This document shows, piece by piece, positions 3,829 to 63,843 of a DNA stretch of 64,000 bases (within the stretch, counting starts at the first letter, position 1; every line of letters begins with the position of its first letter). The position numbers and the translations under genes are program-made. Below the pieces are notes generated by a model. The model saw only the letters and a list, made by a program, of their open reading frames with translations. It was not told the origin of the DNA and did not search any database. Source of the stretch: Rhodomicrobium sp. R_RK_3 (lineage in GTDB: Bacteria > Pseudomonadota > Alphaproteobacteria > Rhizobiales > Rhodomicrobiaceae); NCBI RefSeq assembly GCF_002198715.1, contig NZ_MWLK01000036.1, forward strand, positions 218,402 through 282,401, in the 5' to 3' direction.

Positions 3829-5418
3829 ATGACCACCGAAGCGAATGAGCCCGAAGCCGCGCGCGTAAACCGCGACGCCGATAACCGCGTCTTCATCTTC
3901 GACACCACCTTGCGCGACGGCGAGCAATCGCCCGGCGCCTCGATGACGCTGGAAGAGAAGATCCAGGTCGCCGAACTTTTGGACGAAATGGGCGTCGACA
4001 TTATCGAGGCAGGCTTCCCGATCGCCTCGAACGGCGATTTCCAGGCGGTGTCCGAGATCAGCAAGACGGTGCAGAAGGCCGTCGTCTGCGGCTTGGCCCG
4101 CGCCGGGCTGAAGGACATCGACCGGGCCGGCGAAGCGTTGAAGGATGCAAAGCGCCCGCGCATCCATACGTTCATCGGCACCTCGCCCTTGCACCGGCAA
4201 TATCAGCTCAACATGGACCAGGAGCAGGTCTATGAGGCCGTCGTCGCCTCGGTGACGCGGGCCCGCTCGTATACGGATGACGTCGAATGGTCGGCGATGG
4301 ATGCGACCCGCACCGAGCCCGAATATTTGCGCCGCGTCGTCGAGGCCGCGATCAAGGCAGGCGCGACCACCATCAACATCCCCGATACGGTCGGCTATAC
4401 GACGCCGGAAGAATTTTATACCCTCATCAAGATGCTGCGCGAAGAGGTGCCGGGCGGCGATGGCGTGATCTTCTCGACCCATTGCCACAATGATCTCGGC
4501 TTGGCGGTCGCCAATTCGCTGGCGGGCCTGCGCGCCGGCGCCCGGCAGATCGAATGCACCATCAACGGCCTCGGCGAGCGGGCCGGCAACGCCGCGCTGG
4601 AAGAAGTCGTGATGGCTATCAACACCCGCAACGACGTGCTGCCCTATTGGACCGGCGTCGATTCCCGTTATATCGCCCGCGCCTCGAAGCTGGTCTCTGC
4701 CGTCTCGGCGTTTCCGGTGCAGTACAACAAGGCCATCGTCGGCAAGAATGCCTTCGCGCATGAAAGCGGCATCCACCAGGACGGCGTACTGAAGAACGCC
4801 CAGACCTACGAAATCATGACGCCGGAAAGCGTCGGCCTGAAAGAATCGTCGCTGGTGATGGGCAAGCATTCCGGCCGCCACGCCTTGCGCGAAAAGCTGC
4901 GCGAGATGGGCTATGAGCTGGGCGACAACGCCTTCGAGGCCGCCTTCCAGAGCATGAAAGACCTCGCCGACAAGAAGAAGCATGTGTTCGACGAGGACCT
5001 GGAAGCCATCGTCGACCAGAACGTCGCCACAGCGCATGACCGCATCAAGGTCTTGTCGCTGACCGTCATCGCCGGCACCGGCGGCCCGCAGCGCGCCACG
5101 ATCACGCTCGACATCGACGGCCAGCACCACACCGCCGAGCGCACCGGCGACGGCCCGGTCGATGCCACCTTCAAGGCCATCCAGTCGCTGTTCCCGCACG
5201 AGGCGCGGCTCCAGCTCTATCAGGTGCACGCCGTCACCGAGGGCACCGATGCGCAGGCGGAGGTCAGCGTCCGGCTCGAAGAGGCGGGCAAGACGGTGAC
5301 CGGGCGCGGTTCCGACACCGACACGATGGTCGCCTCGGCGCGTGCCTATATCAGCGCGCTCAACAAACTGATGACCCGCCGCGAAAAGAATGCTCCCGGC
5401 GCGATGATGGCGATTTAA
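3829..5418 (+). CDS. leuA: 2-isopropylmalate synthase
   Basis: 529 residues. Condenses acetyl-CoA with 2-oxoisovalerate, the committed step of leucine synthesis. The DRE-TIM barrel starts with DTTLRDGEQSPGASM (residues ~25-39, Arg/Asp of the active site). The metal-binding HCHNDLGLA is at ~218-226, followed by the GLGERAGNA loop. The C-terminal ~130 residues form the LeuA dimer/leucine-binding regulatory domain (LSLTVIAGTGGPQRATITL onward), so feedback inhibition by leucine is expected. The length is normal for the long bacterial type. It is preceded by a Leu-rich leader peptide and followed by a hairpin shared with the convergent downstream gene. Confidence 0.97.
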   Translation: MTTEANEPEAARVNRDADNRVFIFDTTLRDGEQSPGASMTLEEKIQVAELLDEMGVDIIEAGFPIASNGDFQAVSEISKTVQKAVVCGLARAGLKDIDRAGEALKDAKRPRIHTFIGTSPLHRQYQLNMDQEQVYEAVVASVTRARSYTDDVEWSAMDATRTEPEYLRRVVEAAIKAGATTINIPDTVGYTTPEEFYTLIKMLREEVPGGDGVIFSTHCHNDLGLAVANSLAGLRAGARQIECTINGLGERAGNAALEEVVMAINTRNDVLPYWTGVDSRYIARASKLVSAVSAFPVQYNKAIVGKNAFAHESGIHQDGVLKNAQTYEIMTPESVGLKESSLVMGKHSGRHALREKLREMGYELGDNAFEAAFQSMKDLADKKKHVFDEDLEAIVDQNVATAHDRIKVLSLTVIAGTGGPQRATITLDIDGQHHTAERTGDGPVDATFKAIQSLFPHEARLQLYQVHAVTEGTDAQAEVSVRLEEAGKTVTGRGSDTDTMVASARAYISALNKLMTRREKNAPGAMMAI

Positions 5419-5434
5419 GGCGGATAGCAGACTG

Positions 5435-5466
5435 CGGATCGGGCGGCGTCTACCGCCCCCGATCCG
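5435..5466. terminator. Hairpin between convergent genes
   Basis: A strong GC-rich inverted repeat with one bulge (arms 5435-5446 and 5453-5466, loop around GTCTA) lies between the stop codons of leuA and the convergent enoyl-CoA isomerase gene. There is no clear T tract on either strand, so it is a possible bidirectional or Rho-assisted end signal rather than a classical terminator. Confidence 0.4.
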
Positions 5467-5475
5467 AGATCATCA

Positions 5476-6213
5476 TCACCGCTTGAAAAACGCCTCGAAG
5501 GCCGCGCGGGCTTCCGGCGAGCGCAGCCGGTCGTTGAAATGCGCGCCCTCCACCTGCATCCGCGCGCCGATCGCCTCGACATCGCGCAGCAGCTTCTTCG
5601 TAATCCGCATCGCCTCGGCCGGGCGCAGGCACACCTCGCGCGCCAGCTTGCGCGCCCGCGCCTCAACCTCTTCGCGCGGGGCGGCTTCCGTCGCGAGGCC
5701 GGCTTGCGCCGCTTCCGTACCGCTCATCGGCTGGCCGAGCGCCAGCATCATGAAGGCCCGCGCATGGCCGATCCGCGCCGGCAGCAGCAGCGAGGATGCC
5801 GCCTCCGGCGTCAGCCCGAGGGCGGTGAACGGCGTGCTCAGCCGCGCCTCCTCCGCCATGATGACGATGTCGCAATGCAAGAGCATGGTCGCGCCGACGC
5901 CGACGCCATTGCCGGTGACGGCCGCAATCAGCGGCTTCTCCGCCGTGGCGATGGCGCGCAGGAACCGCTCGACGTGGCGCGGCTCGCCGCCCGTGGCGAT
6001 GGCCGCGAAATCGGACAGGTCGTTGCCGGCGGTGAACATGTCGCCCTCGGCGGTGAAGAGTATCGCCTTGGTCTCGGCGTCCTTCTGGGCGGCCTCCAGC
6101 GCGTCGGCAGCGATGCCGTACATGGCGTTGGTCAGCGCGTTCTTCTTCGCCGGACGGTTGAAGCGGATCTCGACGACGCCGTCTTCACGCTTCACCAGAA
6201 TGTCTTCGCTCAT
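5476..6213 (-). CDS. Enoyl-CoA hydratase/isomerase family protein, PECI-like
   Basis: 245-residue crotonase-fold protein. The oxyanion-hole region reads AEGDMFTAGNDLSDF. The two glutamates of classical enoyl-CoA hydratase are absent at their usual places (PFTALGL instead of PEVxLG; FMMLALG instead of MEMVLTG). Instead the motif TPEAASS resembles the SPEGCSS active-site segment of delta3,delta2-enoyl-CoA isomerases of the PECI type. I therefore favour an isomerase acting on unsaturated acyl-CoAs. It overlaps the upstream MarR gene by 4 bp (ATGA), so the two form an operon and the regulator probably responds to an acyl-CoA or aromatic compound. Substrate unknown. Confidence 0.8.
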   Translation of the reverse strand: MSEDILVKREDGVVEIRFNRPAKKNALTNAMYGIAADALEAAQKDAETKAILFTAEGDMFTAGNDLSDFAAIATGGEPRHVERFLRAIATAEKPLIAAVTGNGVGVGATMLLHCDIVIMAEEARLSTPFTALGLTPEAASSLLLPARIGHARAFMMLALGQPMSGTEAAQAGLATEAAPREEVEARARKLAREVCLRPAEAMRITKKLLRDVEAIGARMQVEGAHFNDRLRSPEARAAFEAFFKR

Positions 6214-6641
6214 CGGGTTTCCTCCATCTCGATCAATCGTTGCAGCCAGCCCGTCACCACGGCGAATTGCTCATCGCTCAGCCCCGCCGCCATCCGCGCA
6301 TTGAACGCCTGCGCCCGCGCCGCCGCCTCGCGCCGCACCTTCCGGCCGCGCTCCGACAGCGCCAGCATGGCATAGCGGGAATCATTTGGCGTCGTTTGCC
6401 GGACAATCAAACCGGCCTTCTCCAACCGCTGCGCGAAGGCCGAAGCCGCCGACTGGGCGATCCGCAGGCGCGTCGCCATGTCATTGACGCTGATCGCGCC
6501 CTCGGCCGGAATGGCGAACAGTGCGCCGGTCTGCGCACCGGTAATGTCGAGATCGCGCAAACCCGCATCCGCCGCCGCTGTCGCCCGCCGGTAGGCGAGA
6601 GAGAGGAGCCAGAACAGCCGTTTGTCGGGGGGCGTGACCAT
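6210..6641 (-). CDS. MarR-family transcriptional regulator
   Basis: 143-residue winged-helix regulator from the ATG at 6641; an in-frame TTG at 6659 would add six residues. The recognition region is NDMATRLRIAQSAASAFAQRLEKAGLIVRQ and the wing is TPNDSRYAMLALSERGRKV, the typical MarR order, with flanking dimerisation helices. Its stop overlaps the start of the PECI-like gene, so it most likely regulates that operon and perhaps the divergent 5-oxoprolinase gene across the 206-bp spacer. The effector is unknown. Confidence 0.85.
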   Translation of the reverse strand: MVTPPDKRLFWLLSLAYRRATAAADAGLRDLDITGAQTGALFAIPAEGAISVNDMATRLRIAQSAASAFAQRLEKAGLIVRQTTPNDSRYAMLALSERGRKVRREAAARAQAFNARMAAGLSDEQFAVVTGWLQRLIEMEETR

Positions 6642-6847
6642 GGCGCCAGCATAACGCAATTCGATCGCAAGTGATACATCGCTACAGATGGAACGCAGGC
6701 CCGCGACAACACACCCCGCGTTTATGCCTCATCAAGGGCGGCGAACAGTGGCATTATCCGGCGCAACTCCAGGCCGCAGCACTATAATCGCCGGTCAGGG
6801 GCCGCCCCCGGGAGGCAAGCCCGAGCGCCATTGAGACGGATGAGCAG

Positions 6848-55574: not shown

Positions 55575-56618
55575 ATGACCGGCCGTATCCCCACCACCAT
55601 CATCACCGGCTTTCTCGGCGCCGGGAAGACCACCCTCATCCGCCATCTGCTCGGCAATACCAACGGGCGGCGCATCGCGCTGATCGTCAATGAGTTCGGC
55701 GATGTCGGCGTCGACCGCGATCTGCTGACCGATTGCGGCGAGGAGGCCTGTCGCCCGGAGGACGTGGTCGAGCTGGCGAATGGCTGCATCTGCTGCACCG
55801 TCGCCGATGATTTCATTCCGACCATGACCATGCTGCTCGCCCGCAATCCCGCGCCGGACCATATCGTCATCGAAACCTCGGGGCTCGCACTGCCGCAGCC
55901 GCTGGTGCGGGCGTTCAACTGGCCGGAAGTGCGCGCGAAAGTGACCGTGGACGGCGTCGTCACGGTGATCGATGCGCGCGCCGTCGCCGACGGGCGCTTT
56001 GCCGAGGACGAAGCCGCCATCGCCACGCTGCGCGAGATCGACCCCAATCTGGATCACGACAGCCCGCTGCACGAGCTGTTCGAGGATCAGCTTTCCTGCG
56101 CGGACCTCATCATTCTCAACAAGACCGACCTCGTGGACGCCGACGAACTCGCGCGCGTGACGCAGATCGTCAGCGAGGAAAAGCGCCCCGCCGCGCAGAT
56201 CGTGCGCTCGGTGCGCGGTCGGCTGTCGTCCGACGTGCTGATCGGGCTCGGCATCGGGGCCGAGGACGATGCGGCGAACCGGCTGTCGCATCATGAGCAG
56301 GAAGGCGAGGCGGAGCACGATCACGACGATTTCGAGAGTTTCGTCGTGGCGATGCCGCCGATCGCCGATCCGCGTGGGCTATCGGACAAGCTGATCGAGG
56401 CGGCGGGCGAATTGGCCATTCTGCGCGCGAAAGGCTTCATATCCGTCGAGAACAAGCCGATGCGGCTGGCGGTGCAGAGCGTCGGCTCACGCGTCGACAG
56501 CTATTTCGACCGGCCGCTGCGCGAAGGCGAGCGCGGCAAGGGCCATCTGGTCATCATCGGGCTGAAGGGGCTCGATCGGCAGGCCATCGCGGACAAGCTC
56601 GGAGGCGTCGTTCATTGA
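55575..56618 (+). CDS. cobW: CobW-family metal-chaperone GTPase
   Basis: 347 residues from the ATG at 55575 (GGAGG upstream). G3E P-loop GTPase: TIITGFLGAGKTTLIRHLL (residues ~7-25), the CxCC metal site in ELANGCICCTV, LNKTDL, and a His/Asp-rich loop (HHEQEGEAEHDHDD, ~237-250). C-terminal CobW domain from ~255. It supplies cobalt to the CobNST chelatase in aerobic B12 synthesis. Controlled by the B12 riboswitch. The next gene overlaps its stop by 4 bp. Confidence 0.95.
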   Translation: MTGRIPTTIITGFLGAGKTTLIRHLLGNTNGRRIALIVNEFGDVGVDRDLLTDCGEEACRPEDVVELANGCICCTVADDFIPTMTMLLARNPAPDHIVIETSGLALPQPLVRAFNWPEVRAKVTVDGVVTVIDARAVADGRFAEDEAAIATLREIDPNLDHDSPLHELFEDQLSCADLIILNKTDLVDADELARVTQIVSEEKRPAAQIVRSVRGRLSSDVLIGLGIGAEDDAANRLSHHEQEGEAEHDHDDFESFVVAMPPIADPRGLSDKLIEAAGELAILRAKGFISVENKPMRLAVQSVGSRVDSYFDRPLREGERGKGHLVIIGLKGLDRQAIADKLGGVVH

Positions 56619-57532
56619 GCCTCGCCCCTCCGGCGGACGCGCCTGTCAGCTCAGTGCCGACACCGTGCATCAACGTCTGCAAGATCGACGAGCCGTCCGG
56701 CTTTTGCCTCGGCTGCGCCCGCAGCAAGGACGAGATCGGCGCGTGGCAAAATGCCGGCGCGGATTATAAGCGCGCGGTCTGGGCGATGTTGCCGCCGCGC
56801 CGGGCGGGCCTGCGGCTGACGGCGTACCGGCTGCCATGGTCGCCAGACGAGATCGCCGGGATGATCGAGCGGACGCTGCGGCGGCGCTGGGGGCGATGGA
56901 CGCTCGGCATCGAGGGCGCGTCGGCGAGTTTCGAGATCGGGCCGCAGGAGGATGCGGACATCGTGAGCGGCGCCGGCGCGGTGACCGCGATCACGGCGCG
57001 CGGCGCGCTGCGGCTGGTCCGGCATGAGAAGGTGATCGCCCTCGCGTATGGCAACGCCGCCGATGCCTGCGGGCCGGAGGCGATCGCGCTGGTGATGCCG
57101 CGCGGACGGCTGGATTTACGACGCGGGGACGTGGTGCAGAGCGTCGGGCCGGACACGGCGTCGGTCTGCGAGTCGCATCGGCGGGCTGGGCTGTATGATC
57201 TGGGCGTGGCGGGGAACAGCGCGGCAAGGCTTTGTCTGCGCAGCGCGGATGCGGGCTTTGTCGAGGCGATGAATGCCGGGCTGGGAATGCCCTGGCGGCA
57301 GGCGCTCGACGGCGCGGCGGAGGCACTGACGAACGCCGCAACGCATGTCGTTGTGGAGACCGGGCTCGGCCGCGTCGAGGCTTTTACGTCCGCGATGCCG
57401 GATGCCGCCCGCCTTGCTACCCGCCGCGAAATGCCCGATGGCAGGGCGCTCGACGCAATCTTCGCGCCTTGCGCCATCTTCTACCCGGCCTCGCGCAAAC
57501 CCGCCGCCGCGCTGCTCGACGGGCATTTCTAG
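56615..57532 (+). CDS. DUF1289 protein fused to an unknown C-terminal domain
   Basis: 305 residues from a TTG at 56615 that overlaps the cobW stop, so it is translationally coupled. Residues ~16-60 are a DUF1289 module (PCINVCKIDEPSGFCLGCAR; C-x3-C and C-x2-C, a probable metal or Fe-S site). The remaining ~240 residues (from about AYRLPWSPDEIAGM to the end) form a domain I do not recognise, with Gly/Ala-rich strands and a GLYDLGVAGNSAARLCLRSAD segment. Stand-alone DUF1289 proteins are ~60-80 residues, so this is an unusual long form. Its position between cobW and cobN suggests a role in cobalt or corrin handling. Confidence 0.75.
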   Translation: MSLAPPADAPVSSVPTPCINVCKIDEPSGFCLGCARSKDEIGAWQNAGADYKRAVWAMLPPRRAGLRLTAYRLPWSPDEIAGMIERTLRRRWGRWTLGIEGASASFEIGPQEDADIVSGAGAVTAITARGALRLVRHEKVIALAYGNAADACGPEAIALVMPRGRLDLRRGDVVQSVGPDTASVCESHRRAGLYDLGVAGNSAARLCLRSADAGFVEAMNAGLGMPWRQALDGAAEALTNAATHVVVETGLGRVEAFTSAMPDAARLATRREMPDGRALDAIFAPCAIFYPASRKPAAALLDGHF

Positions 57533-57582
57533 AACAGGATCAGTTGAGATGGACCCAGCCTATCTTGATCCGCTGCCAGACT

Positions 57583-57690
57583 CCCTCTCCCTTGGGGAGA
57601 GGGTTGGGGTGAGGGGTTCGTGCCTCACCGACAGTCCGCAACCCCTCACCCGGCACGCTTCGCGCGCCGACCTCTCCCCTGGGAGAGGTT
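57583..57690. repeat. Intergenic palindromic repeat (CTCTCCC/GGGGTGAGGGG family)
   Basis: Left part CCTCTCCCTTGGGGAGAGGG + TTGGGGTGAGGGGTT (57585-57618) and right part AACCCCTCACC ... CCTCTCCCCTGGGAGAGG (57640-57688) are near-complementary, so the whole element can fold into one long structure or several hairpins. It lies directly upstream of cobN in the 210-bp spacer after the DUF1289 gene. Related stretches are at 33811-33930 and ~37225-37315. Confidence 0.75.
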
Positions 57691-57742
57691 GCGCTGCGGC
57701 AAGCGGGGGGGTCTTGCACCCTCCTCAGCCGATCGTGCTCTA

Positions 57743-60700
57743 GTGCATCTGCTCGTCACAGAATCCGGCGCGATCGACGACGGCGCCGAGCCGCGCGATT
57801 TGCGCCAGACGCCCGGCGCCATCGTCGTGCTCTCCTCCGCCGACACCGAATTGGCGCTGCTGGCCGGTGCCCATGGCGCGCTCGCGGCGGTCTCCCCCCA
57901 GCCCACGATGCGGCTGGTCAACCTGATGCAGCTCAAGCACAATTTCTCCGTCGATCTCTATGCCGAGAAGACGCTGACCGGCGCGCGTATTGTCGTGCTT
58001 CGCCTGCTTGGGGGGCGCAGCTATTGGCCCTACGGCCTGGAGCGCCTGACCGAGATGGCGCGTGACGGCGCCTTCCAACTGGTCGTGCTACCCGGCGACG
58101 ACAAGCCGGATTTGCTGCTCGAAGGGCTGTCCACGGTCGACGACACCCAGCGCGAGGCTTTGTGGGCCTATCTGCGCGAGGGCGGTACGGAGAATGCCTC
58201 CGGCTTCCTGCTCAGCCTCGCCGCGATGCTGAATGGCAGCGCCGAGCCGCCGCCTGCGCGACCGCTGATGAAAGCCGGCCTCTATTGGCCCGGCGCGGTA
58301 ACTGCGCGGCTTGAAACCATCCGCCAGCACTGGCGTCCCGGCTGGCCGGCCGCCGCGATCATCTTCTACCGCGCCCTGATGCAATCCGGCGATCTGGCCG
58401 CCGTCGATGCCCTCATCGCCGGCCTCGCCGCGCGCGGCCTGAACCCGCTCCCCGTCTTCGTCACCAGCCTGCGCGAGGAGATCTGCATCCAGACTCTGCG
58501 CGCGCTGTTTCGCCAAGCGCCGCCAGACATCATCCTCAACAGCACGGCCTTTGCCGCCAATATCGGCGCGGGTGCCGAAGCTTCGCCCTTCGCCGGACTC
58601 GACGCGATGGTGCTGCAAATCGTCTGCTCTGGCGAGACCGAGGAAGCCTGGGCGAGCCGCACACGCGGGCTGTCGCCGCATTACATCGCCATGCATGTTG
58701 CCCTGCCCGAGATCGACGGCCGCGTGCTGACGCGTGCCATCTCGTTCAAATCCGACAGCGGCTTCGATGCTGCGACCCAGCATTACCTCACGCGCGCCGT
58801 GCCAAAACCCGACCGCGTTGATTTCGTCGCCGACCTCACCGCCGCCTGGGTGCGCCTGCGCCGGACGCCACCACCCGGGCGCAAGTGGGGGCTGATCCTC
58901 GCCAATTATCCGAACCGCGACGCGCGCCTCGCCAACGGCGTCGGCCTCGACACGCCGCAAAGCGCGATCGAAATTCTGACGGCGCTGGAAGGCGCTGGCT
59001 ATGCGGTCGGAGACATCCCGGCGGACGGCAATGCGCTGATCGCCGCCCTGCGCGAAGGGCCGACCAACGCCGGGCTCGAAGGCCGCGCCATCACCGAGCG
59101 CCTGCCGCTCGCCGACTACCTCGCCGGTTTCGCCGCCCTCCCCGAGCGCATCCGCGCCGAAATCACCGCCCGCTGGGGACCGCCCGACGCCGACCCGCAT
59201 TTCACACACGGCGCCTTCGCCATCCCCGCCCTGCGCCTCGGGAATGTCGCCATCGGCGTCCAGCCCGCGCGCGGCTACAACCTCGACCCCAAGGGCAGCT
59301 ACCACGACCCGGCCCTCGTCCCGCCGCACAGCTATTTTGCCTTTTACATCTGGCTGCGCGCCGCGCTCGGCGCTCATGCCGTCATTCATCTCGGCAAGCA
59401 CGGCAATCTCGAATGGCTGCCCGGCAAGGCGCTGGCGCTTTCGGCCGAGTGCTACCCGGAAGCCGCGCTCGGCCCGCTGCCGAACATCTACCCCTTCATC
59501 GTCAACGACCCCGGCGAAGGCAGCCAGGCCAAGCGCCGAACCTCCGCCGTCATCATTGACCATCTCACGCCCCCTCTCACCCGCGCCGAGACCTACGGCC
59601 CGCTGAAGGAGTTGGAGGCGCTGGTCGATGAATATTTCGAGGCAGCGAATGTCGACGAGCCGCGCCGCGTGCATCTGGCCGGCGAAATCCTGGCGACCAG
59701 CGCCCGCCTCGGCCTCGACCGCGATTGCGGCATAGACCCGACCGCGCCGCAGGAGACGGCGCTGGCCGCGCTCGACAACCACCTCTGCGAGCTGAAGGAA
59801 ATGCAGATCCGCGACGGGCTGCATATTTTCGGCCGTTCTCCGGAGGGTGGGATGCGGACGGATTTGCTTGTCGCGCTGGCGAGGGTGCCGCGCGGCGATG
59901 GGGCAGGGGGCAATGCCTCGCTAATCGGCGCGCTGGCGGCGGATTTGGGGCTGGACGGTTTCGATCCGTTGGCCTGTACGCTAGGCGGGGCGTGGTCCGG
60001 CGCGAGACCGGACACGCTCGCCGCTCTCAGCAACGAGCCTTGGCGCACAGCAGGCGATACCGTTGAACGGCTCGAAATCCTGGCCCAGCGCCTTGTCTCC
60101 GGCGAAGCCCCTGCCGCTCCCGGCACACGTAGCCAAGTAGTGCTCGACGAAATCCGTGCGACTCTTGCGCCGAGCGTCGAAGCCTGCGGCACCGCCGAAA
60201 TCGCCGGCATCCTTACCGCCCTCAACGGCCGCTTCGTTCCACCCGGCCCCTCCGGCGCGCCGACGCGCGGCCGCCCCGACGTCCTCCCCACCGGGCGCAA
60301 TTTCTACTCGCTCGACGGCCGCACCGTCCCGACGCCGGCCGCCTGGGAGCTCGGCCGCAAATCCGCCGACCTCGTCATCGCCCGCTACCTGCAGGACCAC
60401 GGCGACTGGCCGCGCGCTCTCGCTATCAGCGCCTGGGGCACGGCTAACATGCGCACCGGCGGCGATGATGTCGCCCAGGCCCTCGCGCTGATGGGCGTGC
60501 GTCCGCGCTGGGAACCGGCCTCGCGCCGCGTCACCGGCTTCGAGATCATCCCGCTCGTAAAACTCGAGCGCCCGCGCGTCGACGTCACCTTCCGCGTCTC
60601 AGGCTTTTTCCGCGACGCCTTCCCCGCGCAGATGGACCTGCTCGACAGCGCCGTCCGCGCCGTCGCCGCGCTGGACGAGGCGGCGGACGAAAACCCGATC

Positions 60701-61495
60701 GCCGCCCATGTCGCCGTTGAAGCCGCCAAACTCATCGCGATCGGCGCCGCGCCCGATGCCGCGCGCCGCCTCGCCAGCGCTCGCATCTTCGGCTCCAAAC
60801 CCGGCGCTTACGGAGCGGGCCTGCAAACGCTGATCGACGAAAGCCTCTGGCGGACGGAGGCCGATTTCGCCGAGAGCTACATCCAATGGGGCCAATATGC
60901 CTATGGCGCGGGCCTCGAAGGCCGGCCCGAGCGCGGCGCTCTGGAACGCCGCCTCGCCGGGCTAGACGCGATTGTCCACAATCAGGACAACCACGAACAT
61001 GACATCCTCGACAGCGACGATTACTACCAGTTCGAAGGCGGTCTGGCGGCGTCAGTGAAAGCCCTGAAGGGCGCGGCGGTGCGCGTCTATCACGGCGACC
61101 ATTCGCGTCCCGAGCGGCCCGTCATCCGCTCGCTGGAGGAGGAGATCGGCCGCATCGTGCGCGGGCGCGCGGCGAATCCGAAATGGATCGCCGGCGTGAT
61201 GCGGCACGGCTATAAGGGCGCCTTCGAGATCGCCGCGACTGTGGATTACCTCTTCGCCTTCGCCGCGACCACCGACGCTGTGGGCGACCATCATTTCGAG
61301 GCGCTTTACGACGCCTATATCGGCGATGATAGAGTGCGGTCGTTCCTCGCCGAAAATAATGACGCGGCCTTGACCGACATCGCCGCCCGCTTCAGCGAGG
61401 CCATCGAGCGCGGCCTGTGGTCGCCGCGCAGCAACAGCGCCGGAGCGCTGCTCGGCCAGTTGGCCAAGGCGCGGCAAAGGGAGGTTTCCACATGA
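57743..61495 (+). CDS. cobN: Cobaltochelatase large subunit CobN
   Basis: 1250 residues from the GTG at 57743, chosen because the protein then begins VHLLVTESGAIDDGAEPRDL, the conserved CobN start; the frame is open 41 codons further upstream, but that part is translated palindromic repeat. CobN binds hydrogenobyrinic acid a,c-diamide and, with CobS/CobT-type AAA subunits (not in this window), inserts cobalt. Visible family blocks: HLGKHGNLEWLPGKAL, YPFIVNDPGEGSQAKRR, GRNFYSLDGRTVPTPAAWELG, and NQDNHEHDILDSDDYYQFEGG near the end. No strong Shine-Dalgarno. It overlaps cobO by 4 bp. Confidence 0.96.
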   Translation: MHLLVTESGAIDDGAEPRDLRQTPGAIVVLSSADTELALLAGAHGALAAVSPQPTMRLVNLMQLKHNFSVDLYAEKTLTGARIVVLRLLGGRSYWPYGLERLTEMARDGAFQLVVLPGDDKPDLLLEGLSTVDDTQREALWAYLREGGTENASGFLLSLAAMLNGSAEPPPARPLMKAGLYWPGAVTARLETIRQHWRPGWPAAAIIFYRALMQSGDLAAVDALIAGLAARGLNPLPVFVTSLREEICIQTLRALFRQAPPDIILNSTAFAANIGAGAEASPFAGLDAMVLQIVCSGETEEAWASRTRGLSPHYIAMHVALPEIDGRVLTRAISFKSDSGFDAATQHYLTRAVPKPDRVDFVADLTAAWVRLRRTPPPGRKWGLILANYPNRDARLANGVGLDTPQSAIEILTALEGAGYAVGDIPADGNALIAALREGPTNAGLEGRAITERLPLADYLAGFAALPERIRAEITARWGPPDADPHFTHGAFAIPALRLGNVAIGVQPARGYNLDPKGSYHDPALVPPHSYFAFYIWLRAALGAHAVIHLGKHGNLEWLPGKALALSAECYPEAALGPLPNIYPFIVNDPGEGSQAKRRTSAVIIDHLTPPLTRAETYGPLKELEALVDEYFEAANVDEPRRVHLAGEILATSARLGLDRDCGIDPTAPQETALAALDNHLCELKEMQIRDGLHIFGRSPEGGMRTDLLVALARVPRGDGAGGNASLIGALAADLGLDGFDPLACTLGGAWSGARPDTLAALSNEPWRTAGDTVERLEILAQRLVSGEAPAAPGTRSQVVLDEIRATLAPSVEACGTAEIAGILTALNGRFVPPGPSGAPTRGRPDVLPTGRNFYSLDGRTVPTPAAWELGRKSADLVIARYLQDHGDWPRALAISAWGTANMRTGGDDVAQALALMGVRPRWEPASRRVTGFEIIPLVKLERPRVDVTFRVSGFFRDAFPAQMDLLDSAVRAVAALDEAADENPIAAHVAVEAAKLIAIGAAPDAARRLASARIFGSKPGAYGAGLQTLIDESLWRTEADFAESYIQWGQYAYGAGLEGRPERGALERRLAGLDAIVHNQDNHEHDILDSDDYYQFEGGLAASVKALKGAAVRVYHGDHSRPERPVIRSLEEEIGRIVRGRAANPKWIAGVMRHGYKGAFEIAATVDYLFAFAATTDAVGDHHFEALYDAYIGDDRVRSFLAENNDAALTDIAARFSEAIERGLWSPRSNSAGALLGQLAKARQREVST

Positions 61496-62127
61496 GCGAT
61501 GATAGTATCTCGCCCGGCGCGGAGGACGGCAATGCCCGCCACGCCGAAAAAATGGCGAAGAAGAAGGCCTCGCGCGACAAGATCATGGCCGCCAAGACCG
61601 AGGAGCGCGGCCTGCTGATCGTGCATACCGGCAAGGGCAAGGGCAAATCGACGGCGGCTTTCGGCATGGTATTCCGCGCCATCGCACACAAAATGCCCTG
61701 CGCCGTGGTGCAGTTCATCAAGGGGGGCTGGGAGACCGGCGAGCGCGCCCTGATCGCCGAGCATTTTGCCGGCATCTGCCAGTTCCACACGATGGGCGAG
61801 GGCTTTACCTGGGAAACGCAGGACCGCGAACGCGACATCGCCCACGCCCGCGCCGCCTGGGAGAAGGCCAAAGAGCTGATCCGCGAGCCGGCCATCAAGC
61901 TGGTGCTGCTCGACGAACTGAACATCGCGTTGCGCTATGATTATGTGCCTATGGATGAAGTGCTTGCCTTCATGGCGGAAGAGAAGCCTACGGACACGCA
62001 TGTCATCATCACGGGCCGGAACGCCCCGGATGCACTGGTCGAGGCGGCCGATCTCGCGACGGAAATGACGCTGCTGAAGCACCCCTTCCGCTCCGGCGTG
62101 AAGGCCCAAGCCGGGATCGAGTTTTAA
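61492..62127 (+). CDS. cobO: Cob(I)yrinic acid a,c-diamide adenosyltransferase
   Basis: 211 residues from the ATG at 61492 (GGAGG 7 nt upstream; ATGA overlap with cobN). CobA/CobO type with P-loop HTGKGKGKSTAAFG (residues ~45-58), the FIKGGWETGER segment, and LVLLDELNIALRYDYV. It attaches the adenosyl group to cobalt. A charged N-terminal stretch (RHAEKMAKKKASRDKIMAAK) precedes the core, as in other alphaproteobacteria. Confidence 0.96.
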   Translation: MSDDSISPGAEDGNARHAEKMAKKKASRDKIMAAKTEERGLLIVHTGKGKGKSTAAFGMVFRAIAHKMPCAVVQFIKGGWETGERALIAEHFAGICQFHTMGEGFTWETQDRERDIAHARAAWEKAKELIREPAIKLVLLDELNIALRYDYVPMDEVLAFMAEEKPTDTHVIITGRNAPDALVEAADLATEMTLLKHPFRSGVKAQAGIEF

Positions 62128-62364: not shown

Positions 62365-63843
62365 ATGACCGCCTCCCGCATCCCCGCGATCATGATCCAG
62401 GGCACCGGCTCCAACGTCGGCAAATCCCTTATCGTCGCCGGGCTTTGCCGCGCCTTCATGCTGCGCGGCCTCGCCGTCCGCCCCTTCAAACCGCAGAACA
62501 TGTCCAACAACGCCGCCGCGACCCCGGACGGCGGCGAAATCGGACGCGCTCAAGCGCTGCAAGCGCTCGCCGCCCGGGTCCCGCTCAGCGTCCACATGAA
62601 CCCCGTGCTGCTCAAGCCCGAAGCGGATTCCACCAGCCAGATCATCGTGCAAGGCCACCGCTTCGGACGCATGCGCGCCCGCGAATTCGGCCAGCGCAAA
62701 TCCGAACTGCTGCCGCGCGTGCTCGAAAGCTTTGCAATCCTCTCCCGCGAGGCCGAGCTCATCGTCGTCGAAGGCGCGGGCAGCCCGGCCGAGGTCAATC
62801 TGCGCGCCGGCGACATCGCCAATATGGGTTTTGCCGAAGCCGCCGACCTGCCCGTCATCCTCGCAGGCGACATCGACCGCGGCGGTGTCATCGCCAGCCT
62901 CGTCGGCACGCACGCCCTGCTGAGCGAGGCCGAACGCCGCCGCATCCAGGGCTTCCTCATCAACAAATTCCGCGGCGACGCCGCGCTTTTCGCCGAGGGC
63001 GCGCGCATCATCGCCGAGCGCACCGGCTGGACCGACCTCGGCATCATCCCCCATTTCGCCGCCGCCGCGCGCCTCCCTGCCGAAGACTCCGTCGGCATCC
63101 TCTCGGCCGGATCACGCGATGCCGAAGGCCGCCTCAAGATCGTCGTCCCCGTCATCTCCCGCATTGCCAATTTCGACGACCTCGACCCGCTTAAGCTCGA
63201 GCCCGGCGTCGCCATTCACTTCGCAACGCCCGGAGCGCCGCTGCCGCGCGACGCCGGCCTGATCTTCCTGCCCGGCTCGAAATCCACTATTGACGACCTC
63301 GCGGGCCTGCGCCGCGAGGGCTGGGACATCGACATTGCCGCGCATGTCCGCCAGCGCGGCGCGGTGATCGGCATTTGCGGCGGCTATCAGATGCTCGGCC
63401 GCACCATCGCCGACCCGGACGGCATCGAAGGCGCCCCCGGCACCCATCCCGGCCTCGGCCTGCTCGACGCCGAAACCGTGCTGACGCCGGACAAGCGCGT
63501 GCGGCCCGTCCTGGGCGGCGAAATTGGCAGCGGCCTGCCCGTCACCGGCTATGAAATTCACCTCGGCCGCACCACCGGCCCAGCGACCGGCCGCCCCTGG
63601 CTCCGCATCGAGGGCGAACCGGACGGCGCGATCAGCCCCGATGGCCGCGTCTTCGGCAGCTATGTCCACGGCCTGTTCCAGAGCGACGAGTTCCGCCGTG
63701 CCTTCCTCGCCCGTCTCGGCGCGGCGGCCGATGGTGACATCCATTACGGTGCGTTGCTCGATGCCACGCTGGACAGCCTCGCCGCGCATCTGGAGGCGCA
63801 TCTGGACCTCGACCGCCTCCTCGCCATAGCCCGCGCGCGATAG
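62365..63843 (+). CDS. cobQ: Cobyric acid synthase
   Basis: 492 residues. Amidates adenosylcobyrinic acid a,c-diamide at four positions with glutamine and ATP. N-terminal dethiobiotin-synthetase-like ATPase domain ([40 protein letters not shown]) and C-terminal class I-type glutamine amidotransferase domain with catalytic Cys in [15 protein letters not shown] and His in GSYVHGLF. Separated from cobO by repeat copy C, so it may be transcribed with the operon or from its own promoter. Confidence 0.96.

Follow-up and report, generated by a model that had tools for sequence, protein, structure and literature searches.

The gene overlapping cobW in a vitamin B12 cluster of Rhodomicrobium sp. R_RK_3 encodes a fusion of DUF1289 and DUF6925, and a corrinoid- or cobalt-related role, which a first-pass annotation had suggested for this gene, is well supported for DUF6925 by gene context across the Alphaproteobacteria. 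The preferred reading, held tentatively and at a little under an even chance, is that DUF6925 is a cytosolic corrinoid-handling (hand-over) protein, the B12 counterpart of HemS by gene content. The gene was analysed within a stretch of 64,000 nucleotides (the window), and the features of the cluster are listed in Table 1.

Table 1. Features of the B12 cluster, numbered from the first letter of the window.
Feature	Position	Strand	Basis
Cobalamin riboswitch RF00174	55191..55424	+	Rfam, 112 bits (gathering score 31.5), full model 1-189
cobW	55575..56618	+	TIGR02475, E 2.7e-151, 503 bits (cut-off 332)
Shine-Dalgarno GGAGG	56601..56605	+	Read from sequence, 9 nt before TTG start
Fused DUF1289-DUF6925 gene	56615..57532	+	Open frame, 305 codons/aa, TTG start
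DUF1289 module, residues 16-63	56660..56803	+	PF06945, E 1.4e-16, 60.5 bits
DUF6925 module, residues 81-264	56855..57406	+	PF21973, E 1.3e-31, profile 3-186 of 300
Foldable repeat	57560-57740		RNA z-score -4.7
cobN	57743..61495	+	TIGR02257, 1606 bits (cut-off 822), scanned from 57740
cobO open frame	61417..62127	+	PF02572, E 2.5e-64, residues 63-236
cobQ, cobyric acid synthase	62365..63843	+	NF001989, E 2.7e-184

After the riboswitch the cluster reads cobW, the fused gene, cobN, cobO and cobQ. The overlap between the first two genes is the 4 bp TTGA, since the cobW stop codon TGA occupies 56616-56618; this overlap and the position before cobN (from the stop coordinates, TIGR02475 and TIGR02257) are as the first-pass annotation had given them. 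The GTG start of cobN was the analyst's choice, and the true start of cobO probably lies further inside its open frame because the frame overlaps the end of cobN. The riboswitch is located ∼1.2 kb before the TTG codon on the same strand with cobW as the gene recognised between them; with this element upstream and co-directed genes between, the fused gene is a predicted member of a cobalamin-riboswitch regulon. A first contig search with the window's protein as the sole query found no relative. The nearest relative subsequently found (L002/L074) is from the same family and shares 49% identity over query residues 11-305. The fused gene is genuine and no chance frame, because the L074 locus keeps the order cobW, fused gene, cobN, cobQ of the window. 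A strongly foldable repeat lies between the fused gene and cobN; its core pattern occurs in 30 exact copies genome-wide versus none for the reversed control, and it is a dispersed REP-like element within the B12 operon.

The N-terminal four-cysteine DUF1289 module recognised at first pass was confirmed by a match that spans the full profile (1-47), scores above the Pfam gathering cut-off of 27 and contains the cysteines as C18-X3-C22-X8-C31-X2-C34, the spacing being read from the translation. The module may be of the iron-sulfur cluster or metal-binding kind, in line with the annotation of DUF1289. The cysteine cluster is kept in 14 of the 15 other fused-clade proteins and is lost in L065 (9311-10303, genome G142), a member of the clade whose N-terminal part lacks it; G142 also carries an intact fused copy (L066). 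The C-terminal part, which had been described as unrecognised, is in fact a catalogued Pfam family without known function: residues 81-264 match DUF6925 at 110.6 bits, four times the gathering cut-off of 27. The window's protein gave no NCBIfam match up to E 1. All 48 members of one alignment (A7), the window's protein included, match DUF6925 at E ≤ 1, and DUF1289 is matched in 16 of the 48, which is the number of fused rows there. The window's copy retains the glycines, arginines and acidic residues that are invariant in the family (G97, G100, G177, D194, G196, R208, R252 and E254, numbered without the start residue) and lacks the SPxGPHTH segment (GPHTH motif). Its clade mates likewise lack this segment, which is therefore not required in that clade. 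Among 16 fused proteins (the window's and 15 others, 14 of them from whole genomes and one from a plasmid) HTH is kept in ten and missing in six, of which the five that were in the tree form one clade. A GPHTH count of 76 in the best 80 loci is biased, because the motif itself was a search pattern for loci, and was set aside.

DUF6925 was found in 45 of 297 sampled genomes of the order and in 10 of 398 genomes of a phylum sample. Tracking with CobN was rejected as not telling, CobN being hardly more frequent in genomes with DUF6925 (42/45) than in those without (28/35, an arbitrary pick and no random draw). Two architectures occur, measuring 286-360 aa (stand-alone) and 292-314 aa (fused DUF1289-DUF6925) in one compared set. 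The full Pfam profile fits the stand-alone proteins, whereas the window's protein carries DUF1289 and is without GPHTH; the DUF6925 match of fused members mostly ends at profile position ∼230-250 of 300, and that of the window's protein at 186. On a 73-row tree the two forms split with support 100/99, and therefore a single fusion event would suffice. The window's protein pairs with L074 on a long branch of 1.23 changes per column, and this pair is joined with L065, L066 and L072 (support 99/87); the window's copy is evidently fast-evolving. The label of having cob neighbours, assigned by the analyst, needs four changes on the tree, at least three of them by well-supported branches. Neighbours were tallied in the best 80 of 415 matched loci (47 fused and 33 stand-alone, a split made by the cysteine pattern itself), with short contigs counting as misses. 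The loci are not all independent, as some share an assembly (L104 and L117), a genome (L065 and L066) or a genus (L066, L070 and L072).

Stand-alone DUF6925 genes lie beside genes for B12 uptake. Among 24 stand-alone loci from genomes and plasmids (L078-L097, L099-L102), 19 have a co-directed set of TonB receptor, btuF, btuC and btuD before the DUF6925 gene, and the 33 stand-alone loci of the best-80 set divide into 16 with strict btu neighbours, 11 with a TonB receptor only, one with a weak ABC match and five with nothing. On annotated plasmids the four genes before DUF6925 are labelled as a TonB receptor, a substrate-binding protein, an 'iron' permease and an ATPase. For pCMU01 of Methylorubrum extorquens CM4 the operon is named btuB-btuF-btuC-btuD, with a cobalamin riboswitch, by its authors (PMC3621897); the DUF6925 gene that follows is annotated there only as a 'hypothetical protein' in the sequence record. 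A close BtuC was found in 53 of the 297 genomes of the order, and in 28 of the 30 genomes that also hold DUF6925 the two genes are within 4 kb of each other (lists compared by hand); DUF6925 is missing from the other 23 of the 53, and B12 import as such can therefore do without it. On a Phaeobacter plasmid a short CbiZ gene lies between the ATPase and DUF6925 genes, directly before the latter, and a CbiZ match is also present in L104. The DUF6925 gene is not always the last of its operon, as ExbB/ExbD or a small kinase-like gene can come after it. The latter is a P-loop kinase-like gene that follows DUF6925 in the btu operon of Methylobacteriaceae and relatives (L099 8888-9418; also in L081, L159, L161, L172 and L183); the L099 protein matches AAA_33, Zeta_toxin and CPT, and a corrinoid kinase is perhaps encoded here.

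The settings of the fused form are more varied. Where cob genes are neighbours the fused gene mostly sits between cobO and cobQ, as in Xanthobacter, Mameliella, Methylobacterium and others, and this holds for 11/11 rows of one tree clade. It adjoins cobT in Methyloligella, is near cobB and cobQ on a Cereibacter plasmid, and comes after btu genes in L063, L066, L068, L070 and L072. The 47 fused loci of the best-80 set comprise 18 with cob neighbours, two with strict btu neighbours, 14 with only a weak ABC match and 13 with nothing; cob and strict btu neighbours are both absent from 27 (several of these contigs are short), and of the 17 among them covered by the Rfam scan 13 hold a riboswitch. 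The fused gene also comes behind riboswitch-led transporters, in further Rhodobacteraceae and Stappiaceae. A survey had been proposed of whether the long form tracks with cobW-cobN: the arrangement is kept in L074, and the link proved wider than these two genes, with cob neighbours in 18/47 and btu genes or riboswitch-led transporters in others. In L111 (Rhodobacteraceae; 3855-6832) the cobalamin riboswitch fronts a metal importer of the ABC-3 and ZnuA families, a candidate cobalt importer, and in L106 a riboswitch-led DUF1636 gene with a family-5 binding-protein system neighbours the fused gene. L107 (5823-9613) is a tetrapyrrole setting outside B12, with the fused gene among porphobilinogen deaminase, ALA dehydratase and a SOUL haem-binding protein and no cobalamin riboswitch found by the Rfam scan. 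A protein of ∼98 aa without a Pfam match is encoded upstream of the fused gene in L098 (14651-14947) and has matches in L108-L111, L114, L116, L118, L119 and L128; a cobalamin riboswitch stands directly before its gene in L098, L114, L119 and L128.

Cobalamin riboswitches were detected with Rfam anywhere in 57 of 68 scanned loci (31/36 fused and 26/32 stand-alone); in 51 of the 68 (26 fused and 25 stand-alone) one lies at most 7 kb upstream in the orientation of the gene. The loci taken for the last scans were mainly ones that lack cob and btu neighbours. No riboswitch was found in the remaining 11 of the 68 (L062, L092, L095, L096, L107, L110, L129, L146, L153, L167 and L177). The Rfam scan covered loci only; the comparison with 20 control windows (arbitrary stretches, hand-picked from 13 genomes holding the DUF6925 family) rests on the riboswitch core box. 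With at most one mismatch the box was present in 67 of 80 loci (40/47 fused and 27/33 stand-alone) versus 0/20 controls, and without mismatches in 31/47 fused loci, 25/33 stand-alone loci and 0/20 controls; at two mismatches all 44 of 44 known riboswitches were found, but five of the 20 control windows also matched. The gene neighbours in the control windows were one cob, no btu and one weak ABC, with nothing in 18. A lack of conserved association with cob genes had been named at first pass as the outcome that would count against a B12-related role; a conserved association with B12 genes was found.

DUF1289 also occurs near B12 genes on its own. Its DUF1289-only relatives are short separate genes, whereas the window's DUF1289 is fused to DUF6925; of the 23 loci counted, 12 (L006, L010-L012, L016, L017, L019 and L023-L027) have such a gene immediately behind a co-directed cobS, with cobT divergent. 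The count covers the DUF1289-only matches with a locus in the search for relatives of the window's protein, further matches lying outside it. That DUF1289 and DUF6925 are each tied to B12 genes separately is a hint that the two halves of the fusion may work together. The window's module shares CX3CX8CX2C and the whole-profile match with Pfam DUF1289 (PF06945; YdhL of E. coli), and YdhL is listed simply as a DUF1289 protein, among genes picked up by oxidant-resistance screens (PMC8228696).

The structure of the window's protein was predicted with AlphaFold2 (mean pLDDT 91.1) and a model of a stand-alone relative was also used (pLDDT 93.9). For neither model did Foldseek against the PDB return a match at E ≤ 0.001, and its top rows (among them nitrophorin, beta-galactosidase and sliding clamps) had TM-scores near 0.1 and were discarded; with both alignments as queries, no chain of a solved structure was hit by sequence up to E 10. 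A match of the C-terminal domain to a known enzyme unrelated to B12, which would also have spoken against the first-pass proposal, was seen neither with profiles nor with Foldseek at this threshold. VIA-align placed 3na2 first for the window's model (Z 7.6, 2.8 Å over 105 residues) and for the stand-alone model (Z 7.0, 3.6 Å over 131 of 138 residues). This protein from Leptospirillum rubarum shows 14% identity at a Z within the range of chance likeness; its function is unknown, so it tells nothing about the role of DUF6925, and the literature search found no paper identifying it. The next rows were 2ph0 (4.9) and HemS/ChuS/PhuS (Z 3.8-4.9; other rows ≤3.4) for the window's model and ChuS, HemS and PhuS (Z 4.3-4.7; other rows ≤3.8) for the stand-alone model. 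Values of 3.8-4.9 and 7.6, all below 8, are in the range that the notes of the tool call common without a clear match.

HemS, ChuS and PhuS are haem chaperones or haem-degrading enzymes, the cytosolic partners of a TonB receptor and an ABC tetrapyrrole importer. Membership of DUF6925 in the HemS/ChuX families was rejected on sequence: neither the window's protein nor the A7 members matched HemS (PF05171) or ChuX_HutX (PF06228) up to E 1, and hhalign gave DUF6925 a probability of 0.1-0.9 against HemS/ChuX versus 96.9 for HemS against ChuX (profiles of nine and eight sequences). HemS serves here as an analogy of place and, on the structural side, as a weak lead; no family assignment is meant, because the profile comparison finds no kinship and the Z values are weak. 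Haem operons with such a make-up (TonB receptor, ABC importer, cytosolic protein) are reported in the literature and resemble the DUF6925 setting, with B12 genes as the neighbours here. CobW shares the operon and the pathway stage of the window's protein; it is a GTPase with a family model of its own and no profile relation to DUF6925.

The preferred reading, that of a corrinoid hand-over protein, starts from the observed domains, the gene order, the riboswitch ahead of the cluster, a linkage to B12 genes seen again and again and a tree that requires a single fusion origin. We infer corrinoid binding, hand-over, the pathway step, what DUF1289 does and the location in the cytosol; no signal peptide was seen by eye in the sequence. 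DUF6925 would act at two points at which cobalt corrinoids enter, after import and after cobalt insertion. The stand-alone form would take the corrinoid released by BtuCD and pass it to the next step. The fused form would bind the cobalt corrinoid newly made by cobalt insertion (CobW/CobNST), ahead of adenosylation and amidation by CobO and CobQ, with DUF1289 as a possible docking or metal-binding module. A fuller version, in which DUF6925 proteins are cytosolic corrinoid chaperones, perhaps ligand-removing, that complete btuB-btuF-btuC-btuD and were recruited, once fused to DUF1289, to carry the corrinoid from CobNST to CobO/CobQ, is possible and as a whole rather doubtful.

Imported cobalamin must be stripped and adenosylated, and DUF6925 might instead be a corrinoid-activation enzyme that works with a redox partner to take off the upper ligand, or to reduce Co(II) to Co(I) for use by the adenosyltransferase CobO. 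The place of the fused genes between cobO and cobQ in the clade described above, that of the stand-alone genes after an importer and the four cysteines supplied by DUF1289 would all suit such an enzyme, but the profile scans matched no flavin, NAD or known redox family and the histidine motif, a potential catalytic element, is absent from the window's clade; we regard this as unlikely. Handling of cobalt rather than corrinoid, by a Co(II) carrier or buffer working with CobW and riboswitch-led metal importers, seems less probable still. CobW is a cobalt chaperone (PMC7689651), the window's copy overlaps cobW, and metal-type transporters lie behind the riboswitch in some fused loci (L111 and L106); against this, the commonest partners of the stand-alone form are btuFCD and a TonB receptor, movers of whole corrinoids, and this form lacks DUF1289. 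A corrinoid-remodelling hydrolase working like CbiZ, to which the CbiZ gene of the Phaeobacter plasmid and the match in L104 might point, was rejected as very improbable: neither the window's protein nor the A7 members match CbiZ (PF01955) up to E 1, and in both loci CbiZ stands beside DUF6925, so that the two are no obvious substitutes for each other. That DUF6925 is without a role in B12 and a mere passenger of B12 operons would fit the 11 scanned loci without a riboswitch, and also L177, L167 and L129 among them, the identified neighbours of which are foreign to B12, but the linkage appears repeatedly, in separate tree branches and with differing sets of B12 genes, and is nearly absent from the control windows, and this last reading was rejected on context as the least credible of all.

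In the searched literature, from which subscription journals were mostly absent, no paper names DUF6925, none on DUF1289 is evidently about B12 and none on a B12-linked protein of such a kind was recognised. To our knowledge, little is known of how bacteria move a corrinoid through the cytosol to the adenosyltransferase, whether it comes from the importer or from the cobaltochelatase. Tied to both corrinoid entry points by gene order and riboswitches, the DUF6925 family is a concrete candidate here and, if this is true, two domains of unknown function, DUF6925 and DUF1289, would join one pathway.
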